From positions 1-35,360 of the forward strand of contig NZ_BJNM01000023.1 of NCBI RefSeq assembly GCF_006539685.1: a stretch of 35,360 nt of DNA, written 5' to 3'. The notes below the pieces were generated by a model. It was given only the letters and a program-made list of their open reading frames with translations, was not told where the DNA came from and did no database searches. The DNA comes from Gluconobacter oxydans (GTDB taxonomy: Bacteria; Pseudomonadota; Alphaproteobacteria; Acetobacterales; Acetobacteraceae). A program made the position numbers and the translations under genes. Below are positions 5,091 through 10,982 of this stretch, piece after piece (the first letter of the stretch is position 1; each line of letters starts with the position of its first letter).

Positions 5091-5864
5091 TCAAAACATG
5101 TCGTCGAAGCCGCCGCCGTCACCGCCGCCGAAATCTCCGCCACCACCAGCATCACCGCCGCCGCCAAAGTCAGAATCGGAGAAGCTGCCGGCATCGGTCC
5201 CGGCACCACCGAAGGGATCGGAGGCCGAAGCATCGCTGCCGTAGTTGTTGATGATGGTGTCGCCACCCGCACCCCAGCCACCGGCAGCATCACCACCAGC
5301 ACCGTGATGATCGGAGAACAGGCCTTCAAGCGCGTTGGCGGCCATCATACCGCCAGCCACACCCGCGGCCGTCGTCAGAGCCGAGCCGAGGAAGCCCGAG
5401 CCGCCGCGCTGGAACATGCCCGGCTGATAACCCGGCGGGTAAGCGTACTGCTGCTGCGGCATGAAGTTCGGCGGCGGAGCGGCCTGCGAACCCCAGCCCG
5501 GCGGCGGTGCCGACTGCTGCGGACGGTTGCCGCCGCCACCGAACAGGCCCCCGAACAGTCCCGGCTTGGACCCGCCCGACTGCTGCACCTGTGCGAGCTG
5601 CTGCTGGGCCTGCTGGAGTTGGAACTCGAGCTGGCGGATGCGGTTCTGCGCCTGCGCGAGCGCGGCTTCCTGCACCACGGCCATCTGGGTGATGCGGTAG
5701 CGGGCTTCCGGATATTTCTGGAAGTTCTCGGCGATGAAGCGGTCCGCTTCAGGGTCGATCGGCGGCAGGGGCGCGGCCGGTGGCTGTCCAGGCCCCGTGA
5801 CCTGCGGCCCTCCCCCGACACGGGCGACGAAACGGGCGATCAGATCGCGTTCTTCGTTGTTCAT
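5091..5864 (-). CDS. DUF2076 domain-containing protein, Gly-rich C-terminus
   Basis: A 257-residue protein of the DUF2076 family, whose biochemical role is not established. The N-terminus ([16 protein letters not shown]) and the segment [37 protein letters not shown] are the recognisable conserved parts. A Gln-rich coiled coil (about 75-100) follows, then a Pro/Gln linker, a short hydrophobic Ala/Gly stretch ([25 protein letters not shown]) and an acidic Gly/Asp-rich tail ending DDMF. The fourth codon, ATG at 5864, was chosen over ATGs at 5873 and 5870 because GGAAGG then sits 9 bases upstream instead of touching the start. No signal peptide is evident. The gene is divergent from glyQ and ends at a strong terminator. 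Confidence 0.75.
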
Positions 5865-6018
5865 CGTCATCATCCTTCCAGATGAAGAAATTGCAGAGCG
5901 TCAATCATATGATGCACTCGCGCCCAGTCTACAAGATCGGCGAAATGACGCTCCCTTCCGGTTAGGGGCCTGTGCCTGTAAGGTGGCGCCCGATTTCTGC
6001 CAACCGGAGCCTATCGAA

Positions 6019-6897
6019 TTGTCTGCGACCCGGCCGCTCTGCTTTCAGGACCTGATCCTGCGCCTTCATCAATTCTGGTCCGAGAAGGGCTGCGCCATCC
6101 TGCAGCCTTACGATACCGAACTCGGAGCAGGCACGCTCTCCCCTCACACCACGCTCCGCGCGCTCGGCCCCAAGCCCTGGGCCGCCGCCTATGTGCAGCC
6201 CTGCCGCCGTCCGTCGGATGGCCGTTACGGCGAGAACCCGAACCGCCTGCAGCACTATTACCAGTATCAGGTACTGCTCAAGCCGACGCCGGAAGACAGC
6301 CAGCAGCTTCTGCTCGACAGCTACCGCGCCATCGGGATCGATCCGGAACTGCACGATATCCGATTCGTCGAGGATGACTGGGAAAACCCGACCATCGGCG
6401 CCTGGGGGCTGGGCTGGGAAGTGTGGTGTGACGGAATGGAAGTCTCGCAGTTCACCTATTTCCAGCAGGTTGGCGGTATTCCGACCGTCATGCCGTCCAC
6501 GGAGTTGACCTACGGGCTCGAGCGTCTGGCGATGTATGTGCAGGGCGTCGAGAACGTCTACGACCTCGACTTCAACGGCAAGGGCCTGACCTATGGCGAT
6601 GTGTTCCTGCGCGCCGAGCAGGACTATTCGCGCCATAATTTCGAGCTCGCCGACACGCAGATGCTGCTGACCCATTTCAACGATGCCGAGCGTGAGTCCA
6701 TGCGTCTGGCCGAGGCCGGCGTGGCCCAGCCCGCTTATGACCAGTGCCTCAAAGCCTCGCATCTGTTCAATCTGCTCGATGCGCGGGGCGTGATCTCCGT
6801 GTCCGAGCGCGCATCCTATATCGGGCGCGTCCGTGAGCTCGCCAAAGACGCCTGCGAAGCCTGGCTCGCCGGTGAGGAGGAGACGTCCCATGGCTGA
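6019..6897 (+). CDS. glyQ: Glycine--tRNA ligase alpha subunit
   Basis: A 292-residue catalytic (alpha) subunit of the bacterial heterotetrameric glycyl-tRNA synthetase. Family sequence is unmistakable: [34 protein letters not shown] and [10 protein letters not shown]. No ATG is available at the expected N-terminus. The best start is TTG at 6019, with GGAG (6006-6009) 9 bases upstream, giving L(M)SATRPLCFQ, which matches the family's usual start. A GTG 12 codons earlier (5983) is the alternative, with a poorer ribosome site. The stop TGA overlaps the glyS start by 8 bases, indicating translational coupling for balanced subunit production. The 5873-6018 gap should hold promoters for both glyQ and the divergent DUF2076 gene. 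Confidence 0.96.
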
Positions 6898-8944
6898 ATT
6901 TTTTATCGAACTGTTCAGTGAGGAAATTCCTTCTGGCATGCAGGCTGGCGCAGCTGTTGAGCTGGGCAATATGCTGGCAAAGGCACTCAGTGGCCTGAAT
7001 CCGCGTGATCTGCGCACGTTCTTCGGCGCCCGCCGCATTGCGGCGAGCCTGACCGTCGATGCCGAAATCCCGGCCCGCAACGTATCCGAGCGTGGCCCGC
7101 GTGAAGGTGCGCCCGAGAAGGCTCTGGCCGGTTTCACCCGCAAGCATGGCGTGACACCCGATGAGCTGACGCTGGAAAACGGCTTCTGGGTCCTGAACAA
7201 ATCGCTTGATCCCGTGAGCGCGGAAAGCCGCGTGGCCGAAGCCGTGCCCGAGCTTCTGTGGAAGTTCCCCTGGCCGAAATCCATGCGCTGGGGTGCGGGC
7301 TCGAACTTCACCTGGGTCCGCCCGCTGCGCCGGATCGCCTGCCTGCTGGACGGGCATGTCGTACCGTTCGCTCTCGCCCGCGAGGGTGATGACGCACATG
7401 GTCTGAAGGCGTCCAACCTCTCCGAAGGCCATCGCTTTCTGGCGCCGGGTCCGTTCGAGATCCTGTCCGGCCAGCAGTGGCAGGAAGAGCTTGAGACGCG
7501 CTCGGTCATCGTGGACATGGATAGCCGCCGCGACATGGTGCGCACCGGCGTGACGCGTCTGGCGGACCAGCATGGCATCATGGTCGTACAGGATGACGGG
7601 CTGGTCGATGAAGTCTGTGGACTGGTCGAATATCCCGTCCCGCTTCTCGGCAAGATTGATGCTGCGTTCATGGATCTGCCTGCCGAAGTGATGCAGGTCT
7701 CCATGCGGATCAACCAGCGCTATTTTGCCCTGCGCAACCCGGATGGCAAGGCCGCACCGTATTTCGCGTTCGTCGGCAATCTGCCGTTCAAGGATGGCGG
7801 CAAGCTGACCACAGCGGGCAATGAGCGTGTGCTCCGCGCCCGTTTTGCCGATGCGCGGCATTTCTGGGATCTGGATCGCAAGACCAAGCTGGCCGACCGC
7901 GTTCCGGCGCTGGCGGCAGTGACGTTCCATGCCGAGCTCGGTACGCAGGCCGAACGCGCCGAGCGGATCTCGAAGCTGGCGGGCACCGTGGCTCAGGCCA
8001 TGGGTCTTGATGGCGCGCAGATCGCCCAGGCTGAACGCGCGGGTCTGCTGGCCAAGGCGGATCTGACGACCGGGATGGTCGGCGAGTTCCCGGAACTTCA
8101 GGGCGTCATGGGCGGCTATTACGCGGTGCATGATGGCGAGGACGAAGCCGTCTCTCGTGCCGTGGCGGAGCATTACCTGCCGCGCGGTCAGTCAGACGAC
8201 ACCGCGAAGGCACCGGTTTCGGTCGCGGTTGCCCTTGCGGACCGACTGGACCTGCTGGCTGGCTTCTTTGCCATTGGCGAACTGCCGAGCGGTTCGGGCG
8301 ATCCGTATGCGCTGCGTCGTGCAGCACTCGGCATCATCCGCACAATCCGTGACAACGGGCTGCGTCTGGACTTGTCTGAACTGTTCGCACAGGCCGCCAA
8401 TGGACGGACGGGTGGCGAACTGGCCAAGCTGCCGGACTTCATTGCGGAGCGCCTGCGCGTGCAGCTTCGCAGCGAAGGCGAGCGGCATGACGTGCTGGCC
8501 GCAACGCTGGCCGGTGGTCTTGATGGCGATCTGGTGCGGCTTCTGGCCCGGACCTCAGCGCTGTCGGAGATGATCCAGACGGAAGACGGGCGCAACCTGC
8601 TCGCCGCCGCCAAGCGCGCCGCCAACATCCTGCGCATTGAGGACAAAAAGGACGGCCCGCATACTGGCGCGCCCGATCCTGCCCTCTATACGCAGGACGA
8701 GGAACGCGCTCTGGCTACGGGTCTGGATCAGGCGGTCCCCGCGATTGAGACAGCTCTGAAGGAAGAGCGCTTCACCGATGCGATGCAGGCCATTGCGGCC
8801 CTGCGTCCGACGCTGGACCGGTTCTTCGAAGCCGTGACAGTCAATACGCCGGAACCGGAAGTGCGGGCCAACCGCCTCAAACTGCTGTCCCGCTTCCGGG
8901 AGACAACGGCACTGATCGCCGATTTCGGCCAGATCGAGGGCTGA
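6890..8944 (+). CDS. glyS: Glycine--tRNA ligase beta subunit
   Basis: A 684-residue beta subunit partnering GlyQ to charge tRNA-Gly; it provides tRNA recognition and anticodon binding. Recognisable parts are the N-terminal [38 protein letters not shown] and [24 protein letters not shown], followed by a C-terminal anticodon-binding (DALR-like) region ending [17 protein letters not shown]. Length is normal. The ATG at 6890 lies inside the end of glyQ with GAGGAGG in front, so the pair is translated in a coupled way. The frame extends 19 codons upstream to 6833, but that region is glyQ. Four bases after the stop the DUF2075-like gene starts, so the three genes probably share one mRNA. Confidence 0.96.
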
Positions 8945-8948
8945 GGCC

Positions 8949-10982
8949 ATGGGAGCGTGGTGGTCCGGATCCGTCACCACGTTCCTTCACACCCCACCGG
9001 ACCAGCTCTGCGCCGCCCTGTCCCACAAGGTGGTGCAGAACCGTTTCCAGGGCGAGCCGCAGCAGGCTCGTGCCTGGCAAGCGCAGATCGATCTTCTGCG
9101 CGATATCCTCCCCACAATTCCCAACGCACAGGACTGGCAGGTTCTGTTCGAGTTCCCGATTCCTCGGCTTGGCGGACGGATCGACACGGTCCTCGTGTCG
9201 CCCGGCGCGATTTACGTGCTGGAATTCAAGATCGGCTCGTCCAGTTTCGATGCGTCAGCCCTCTCCCAGACGGAAGGCTATGCGCTCGATCTGCTGGATT
9301 TTCATACCGCCAGCCGAAATCATCCGCTCATTCCCGTTCTGGTCGCCACGGATGCGCCGCCCCGCGCCCAGACAACGCCGCTTCTGTTGCCTTTGGGCGT
9401 CACAGAGGTTCAGCGCGTCAATGCGACCGGGCTGAAAACGCTCCTGACCACGCTGGCATTGCAGACGGCTCATACCGAAAATCCGCTGATTCCCGCTCAA
9501 TGGGAACATGCTCCTTACGATCCGGTCCCGAGCATCGTGGAAGCGGCACGGCAGATTTACGCCACACACAGCGTTGCCGATATCCACACCGCCCGTGCAG
9601 ATGCGACGAACCTGACACAGACTTCTGCCTGCATCGCCAGTATTCTGCAAAAAGCCCGGACGGAAAGGTGTAAGGTCATCGTGTTCGTGTCGGGTATTCC
9701 GGGCGCTGGCAAAACCTTGTGTGGGCTGAAAGCGGCTTTTGCAGATGGGGACGACGGGACGGGTGCGACGTTCCTGACAGGCAACCCCACTCTTGTTTCG
9801 GTGCTGCGGGAAGCTCTGACGCGCGATACGGTCAGCCGTGGGCAAAAACGTCTCCTCGTGGAGCAGCGGATGGAGTCCACCATCCAGTCCCTGACGAAGT
9901 TCCGCGATCACTATGTCGGACGGCCAGCGGAATGTCCGCCTGAGCATGTCATGGTCATTGATGAAGCCCAGCGATGCTGGAAGCAGGCTCAGGCTGTCCG
10001 CAAAAGTGCATCGCGGCATGTGAAGCTGACAGAGTCCGAACCTGCGCATCTGCTGGACATCATGGGACGGCACGACGGGTTCGCGGCCATTCTGTGCCTG
10101 ATCGGGCATGGGCAGGAAATCAATGACGGTGAAGGCGGTCTGGCCTGTTGGGGTGAGGCCCTTCTGAGCCATCCGGCATGGCGCGTTGAAGCCGCTCCAG
10201 ACGTGATCGGAACCGGGGATCTGACGCATCTGCCCACAACGCCTGAAGCCGGGCGGCAGCGTTTTCTGCATCTCGGTGTGGCCATCCGCTCCCTGCGCGA
10301 GGAAACTGCGCCGCGCTGGGTCAACGCCGTTCTGAACGGAGACGTCGAGACGGCGCAGCGTCTGGCCGGGCAGACGGATCTTCCGTTCCGTCTCACGCGT
10401 AGTCTGGACGATCTGCGGGCTGGGCTGCGACACCGTTCGCGCCTGACCTATCGGTGCGGACTGGTGGCAAGTTCGAAGGCCAAGCGGCTGCGGGCCGAAG
10501 GGTTGGGCTGCGAAGTCCCGCATATGGACGACAAAGCTGTCTCCCAATGGTTCCTGAACCGCTGGGTCCCGGATAAGGATATCCGGGCCTCCGACGCGCT
10601 CGAGACCTGTGCGACGGAGTTTGCCATTCAGGGACTGGAGCTGGATTTTGTGGGGTTGTGCTGGGACGGCGATCTGATCCGTGCGCCTTCAGGCGATCGC
10701 TGGCAGCCACGCCGCTTTTCAGGCACGAAATGGGCCAATGTCAGCACAGCAGAGGCGACGCTGTGGCGGCTGAATACCTATCGCGTTCTGCTGACGCGGG
10801 CGCGTTACGAAACGCTGATCTGGGTGCCGCAGGGCAGCGCGGATGATCCGACGCGTGATCCAGAAACGCTGGACCGGATTGCGGATTTTCTGATGAGGTG
10901 CGGCGTACGCCCACTGGAGCCTGCGGCCCCTGCACGGCCCTTCACTTTGCAGAACGATCTGGCAGACCTGCTTCAGGACTAG
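8949..10982 (+). CDS. DUF2075-family DNA/RNA helicase with N-terminal nuclease-like domain
   Basis: A 677-residue protein with two apparent parts. The N-terminal region carries RIDTVLV (Asp79) followed by YVLEFKIG (Glu92, Lys94), the D...ExK spacing of PD-(D/E)xK nucleases. The ATPase/helicase region has Walker A GIPGAGKT (249-256), Walker B VMVIDEAQR (334-342), a LIGHGQEINDGEGG segment, and late superfamily-1-like motifs EFAIQGLELDFVGLCWD and LLTRARYETLIWVP. This helicase part matches the DUF2075 (Schlafen-like AAA) family, often seen in nuclease or defence settings; the substrate is unknown. It begins 4 bases after glyS with only a weak GAGG, suggesting coupling to glyS. Its stop overlaps the rodA stop in a shared CTAG. 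Base composition does not differ obviously from neighbours. Confidence 0.8.
   Translation: MGAWWSGSVTTFLHTPPDQLCAALSHKVVQNRFQGEPQQARAWQAQIDLLRDILPTIPNAQDWQVLFEFPIPRLGGRIDTVLVSPGAIYVLEFKIGSSSFDASALSQTEGYALDLLDFHTASRNHPLIPVLVATDAPPRAQTTPLLLPLGVTEVQRVNATGLKTLLTTLALQTAHTENPLIPAQWEHAPYDPVPSIVEAARQIYATHSVADIHTARADATNLTQTSACIASILQKARTERCKVIVFVSGIPGAGKTLCGLKAAFADGDDGTGATFLTGNPTLVSVLREALTRDTVSRGQKRLLVEQRMESTIQSLTKFRDHYVGRPAECPPEHVMVIDEAQRCWKQAQAVRKSASRHVKLTESEPAHLLDIMGRHDGFAAILCLIGHGQEINDGEGGLACWGEALLSHPAWRVEAAPDVIGTGDLTHLPTTPEAGRQRFLHLGVAIRSLREETAPRWVNAVLNGDVETAQRLAGQTDLPFRLTRSLDDLRAGLRHRSRLTYRCGLVASSKAKRLRAEGLGCEVPHMDDKAVSQWFLNRWVPDKDIRASDALETCATEFAIQGLELDFVGLCWDGDLIRAPSGDRWQPRRFSGTKWANVSTAEATLWRLNTYRVLLTRARYETLIWVPQGSADDPTRDPETLDRIADFLMRCGVRPLEPAAPARPFTLQNDLADLLQD

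Follow-up and report, generated by a model that had tools for sequence, protein, structure and literature searches.

A conserved TTG start codon on glyQ in Gluconobacter and related acetic acid bacteria

The glyQ locus

The window, by which we mean the whole 35,360-nucleotide stretch of DNA analysed here, belongs to a Gluconobacter-like genome of 2.7 Mb and contains the genes for the two subunits of glycine--tRNA ligase, glyQ and glyS, with a third gene behind them and a divergent gene in front (Table 1). GlyQ matches NF006827 over nearly its full length at 475.2 bits, the curated cut-off being 369, and is 93% identical to the Gluconobacter thailandicus protein in a comparison from which entries for the window's own genome, or for one very close to it, were possibly excluded. 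Comparisons within the genus used a set of 26 genomes, the window's own included; 25 of these could be assessed upstream of glyQ, the contig of the remaining one (L006) ending too near.

Table 1. Genes and sequence elements at the glyQ locus (window coordinates; genus counts refer to the 26-genome set or its 25 assessable members).
Feature	Position	Strand	Remarks
DUF2076 gene	5091-5873	-	divergent from glyQ
TTCCGG, putative -35 of the glyQ promoter	5956-5961	+	fixed 17-nt spacing in 25/25
TAAGGT, putative -10	5979-5984	+	TGTAAGG in 25/25; overlaps GTG 5983-5985
GTG, rejected alternative start	5983-5985	+	in frame in 12/25 assessable genus genomes
GGAG, Shine-Dalgarno sequence of glyQ	6006-6009	+	exactly 9 nt before TTG in 26/26
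TTG, start codon of glyQ	6019-6021	+	invariant in 26/26 genus genomes
glyQ, glycine--tRNA ligase alpha subunit, 292 aa	6019-6897	+	PF02091, E=4.2e-139; NF006827
glyS, beta subunit	6890-8944	+	PF02092, TIGR00211; GAGGAGGAG upstream of ATG
Third gene, Schlafen-group-3-type helicase, apparently accessory	8949-10982	+	PF09848, E=1.4e-78; PADLOC PDC-S41, E=6.6e-224

The ATG of glyS lies within glyQ, the two genes sharing 8 nt (6890-6897), and in 25 of the 26 genus genomes it occupies the same place, at -5 from the glyQ stop; coupling of the two genes is likely. In one congener, L015, the overlap is 1 nt (TGATG) rather than 8 nt.

The third open reading frame begins 4 nt past glyS, and from this spacing alone the three-gene transcript proposed in the earlier note is plausible. 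A helicase is not a constant neighbor, however, being present behind glyS at 5 of the 15 loci examined (L175, L176, L177, L179 and L185), and it looks like an accessory passenger. A three-gene transcript may thus exist in the window, not at the locus in general. The PADLOC family matched by the helicase, PDC-S41, is a candidate defence family. At L179 and L185 the helicase is apparently broken, no listed open frame being as long as the match.

TTG 6019 as the start of glyQ

The TTG triplet is in the glyQ frame, and nine bases (6010-6018) separate it from the GGAG. The frame remains open for a considerable distance upstream, with an in-frame stop at -107 codons from the TTG in the window (row L001), and the potential starts within it are a GTG at -12 codons, a TTG at -54, a GTG at -74 and an ATG at -95 (position 5734). 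The earlier note had stated that no ATG occurs near the N-terminus of the family, and this holds, position 5734 being the nearest in-frame ATG upstream. That ATG was rejected as a start, lying far upstream and opposite the DUF2076 gene, as was the ATC at 6013, which is replaced by ATA, ATT, CTC or TTC in some relatives.

The PF02091 match begins at residue 9 of the TTG-started protein, and when GlyQ is aligned to PDB chain 7eiv_A, the alpha subunit of the E. coli glycine--tRNA ligase, residue 8 of each falls in the same column. Initiation at TTG therefore yields an N-terminus of the expected length.

The combination of TTG and GGAG at exactly 9 nt, which had been singled out as the best fit, was confirmed in the window and recurs in all 26 genus genomes. 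To judge whether the triplet is conserved as a start or as a leucine codon, it can be set against the internal leucines of GlyQ: among the 28 columns in which leucine is invariant, none keeps a single codon across the 26 genomes, and TTG accounts for 4.1% of the codons in these columns. Because internal leucine codons drift whereas the start TTG is invariant, the triplet is conserved for initiation rather than for encoding leucine.

Published descriptions of initiation in G. oxydans place these features within the ordinary range. According to PMC5756330, the SD sequence of the species is aGGAg with a spacing of 7.9 +/- 2.8, so that the glyQ GGAG at 9 nt falls within normal limits, and TTG accounts for 29 of 973 starts (3%). 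TTG is a normal minority start (PMC5756330, PMC11497404), with a share of 4% in 69 genomes, and in E. coli a UUG start gives about 30% of the output of AUG (PMC11497404). That a weak TTG start may limit output of the GlyQ subunit, as the earlier note proposed, is possible.

Spread of the TTG start beyond the genus

Loci were taken as the better matches among 187 hits in 200 genomes of the family, together with named records, an uneven sample that, after removal of 6 exact duplicates, comprised 108 distinct sequences. A scoring rule assigned the starts, giving 46 TTG, 59 ATG and 3 GTG. Three calls were then set by hand (L159 and L162 to ATG, L141 to GTG), after which the counts were 44 TTG, 61 ATG and 3 GTG; L141 and L143 carry an extra TTG at -20, and their start calls are uncertain. 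SD-linked TTG starts occur in the named Asaia (L034) and Bombella (L032) loci and in other genera too, whereas the named Komagataeibacter, Gluconacetobacter and Acetobacter loci (L035-L038) start with ATG.

A protein tree was built for 75 of the 108 rows, without 11 near-copies picked by hand and 22 rows at a greater distance. It contains 37 TTG rows (18 of them outside the genus), 35 ATG rows and 3 GTG rows. The start codon requires 6 changes on this tree, against a mean of 27.4 after shuffling, in a topology of modest support with 29 of its 68 inner branches open. Acetobacter ATG rows fall among the TTG rows. In a nucleotide tree, AT-rich ATG rows nest beside L022, inside the TTG clade; the protein tree was preferred. 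Because L026 and the Neokomagataea anthophila locus L033 have identical coding sequences from the first family residue on, the genus group of 26 appears to include Neokomagataea.

The simplest reading of these sequences is one TTG origin with later changes: TTG would have arisen within the crown acetic acid bacteria and persisted, except where particular lineages afterwards replaced it by ATG or GTG. A separate observation from an alphaproteobacterial genome concerns two glyQ matches (G045:C5:18638-19549) that share a 1130-codon open frame, suggestive of a fused GlyRS.

A putative promoter and leader upstream of glyQ

In all 25 assessable genus genomes, the TAAGGT element is preceded at a distance of 17 nt by TTCCGG (20 genomes), TTTCGG (4) or TTCCGA (1), and the intervening 17-nt spacer occurs in 18 distinct sequences. 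The motif TGTA[AT][GT]GT, picked after inspection of the rows, lies no more than 110 nt before the called start in 37 of the 108 rows, of which 25 belong to the genus, compared with a mean of 0.4 in mononucleotide shuffles. Related TGTATGGT or TGTAATGT elements lie upstream of several ATG- and TTG-started relatives, and the composite pattern CTTCCGG-N12-20-TGTAAGGT turns up a single time in the window's genome, at glyQ.

We infer from this conservation that TTCCGG-17-TAAGGT is the glyQ promoter. Two results fit it less well: a promoter consensus scan did not report the element, its only hit being on the minus strand (5931-5904), and TTCCGG agrees poorly with the -35 of G. oxydans, 'ttGnnn' in PMC5756330. 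The predicted -10 ends 34 nt before the TTG. Transcription would start about 6-9 nt past TAAGGT, at about 5990-5993, leaving a glyQ leader of some 26-29 nt; 16S rRNA would pair with the GGAG and the initiator tRNA would read UUG as formyl-methionine. A search of positions 5800-6200 against Rfam gave two matches, one of 20 bits where the gathering score is 120 and one of 14 bits where it is 45, and no T-box or riboswitch.

Alternative readings of the start region

The closest competitor for the start codon is GTG 5983, initiation at which would make GlyQ 12 residues longer. The window and 11 congeners carry it in an uninterrupted glyQ frame, but in the other 13 of the 25 assessable genomes an in-frame stop lies 8 to 19 codons before the TTG instead, and the stretch between the two holds no ATG, GTG or TTG. 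No GGAG-type SD precedes the GTG, just partial GTG or GGTG matches at 8 nt, and the invariance of the TTG amid varying leucine codons also speaks against it. Since the GTG overlaps the conserved -10-like element, it would not be transcribed from the predicted promoter and probably lies outside the glyQ mRNA. The earlier note had preferred TTG to this GTG, and the conservation in 26 of 26 genomes, the upstream stops and the codon invariance bear that preference out; the GTG is almost certainly not the start. Initiation at TTG could in turn be part of a regulatory switch in which a conserved RNA hairpin masks the SD. The SD is indeed predicted to be base-paired (under 10% unpaired) in 18 of the 26 genus sequences, including the window. 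The hairpin is weaker in the other 8, however, where the downstream arm differs (in L022 alone the upstream arm differs too), the window leader folds less stably than its shuffles (z +1.30), and the Rfam scores are far below gathering. We regard such a switch as highly improbable and dropped it on account of the 8 weakened hairpins and the z value. The joint explanation, which we hold with very little doubt, is that glyQ is translated from TTG 6019 in an SD-led manner, with GTG 5983 probably outside the mRNA, and that the TTG is inherited.

Compatible with the use of TTG is a further proposal, that the weak start has been selected to hold down or balance synthesis of the GlyRS alpha subunit. 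The argument for it comes from a 34-row clade, chosen by us as the TTG rows that form one pure group in the protein tree: 5.7 changes from T to A or G were expected from the 4-fold sites of glyQ, and no change of TTG to ATG or GTG was seen (P0 0.0033). The P0 of 0.0004 for a 43-row clade was set aside as biased, as that clade omits ATG and GTG rows falling between. SD spacing offers a second argument, being 7-10 nt in all 37 TTG rows of the 75-row set and 10-13 nt in those ATG rows that have a GGAG core (19 of 35); the shorter spacing of the TTG rows could be compensation, and the difference may equally be mere ancestry. Against selection, the change of T to A taken alone gives 2.66 expected changes in the clade and a P0 of 0.07 even unscaled, and the genus alone gives 2.99 expected changes and a P0 of 0.05, likewise unscaled. 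Moreover, in PMC5622118 switches away from TTG starts run at roughly half the pace of 4-fold sites (to AUG, 0.0174 versus 0.0344; to GUG, 0.0142 versus 0.0314). Scaled by hand to these rates, the expectations fall to about 2.7 for the clade and 1.4 for the genus, with P0 of about 0.07 and 0.24. The Acetobacter ATG rows among the TTG rows make TTG look dispensable, and the change count is not zero if one follows the nucleotide tree in placing the AT-rich ATG rows within the clade. Retention of TTG is therefore weakly above expectation, the excess being suggestive at most, and selection for reduced or balanced synthesis seems to us unlikely. Quite unlikely is the more specific proposal that UUG is actively maintained in Gluconobacter, Neokomagataea and Bombella, with shorter SD spacing as compensation, and sets the alpha:beta balance of glyQ-glyS. 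The glyQ start looks like ordinary, inherited variation.

Relation to known start codons

Like ordinary bacterial TTG (UUG) starts, that of glyQ is an in-frame TTG that follows a normal SD core and is read by initiator tRNA. Unlike them, it opens a conserved synthetase gene and is common to several genera. Start-switch data in PMC5622118 indicate that selection generally favours AUG. The closest comparison is with glyQ of Komagataeibacter, Gluconacetobacter and Acetobacter, the same gene with the same CGGAG SD core, which differs in its ATG start and, in the sampled rows, in its SD spacing of 10-13 nt. Among the literature matches listed for TTG or UUG starts of glyQ, GlyRS and synthetases and for GlyRS coupling, none was on this start in the portions of text available.

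The TTG call is correct, and the biology is ordinary. The call establishes where a synthetase subunit begins and makes glyQ a clear-cut case of an old non-ATG start that a housekeeping gene carries throughout a clade, of use for start-codon annotation and for testing whether non-ATG starts are tolerated or selected. A likeness to yeast GRS1 is coincidental: that gene is eukaryotic, and its enzyme form and initiation mechanism are unrelated. What the two share is that GRS1, too, encodes a glycyl-tRNA synthetase and has TTG as an alternative initiator (PMC2909995).
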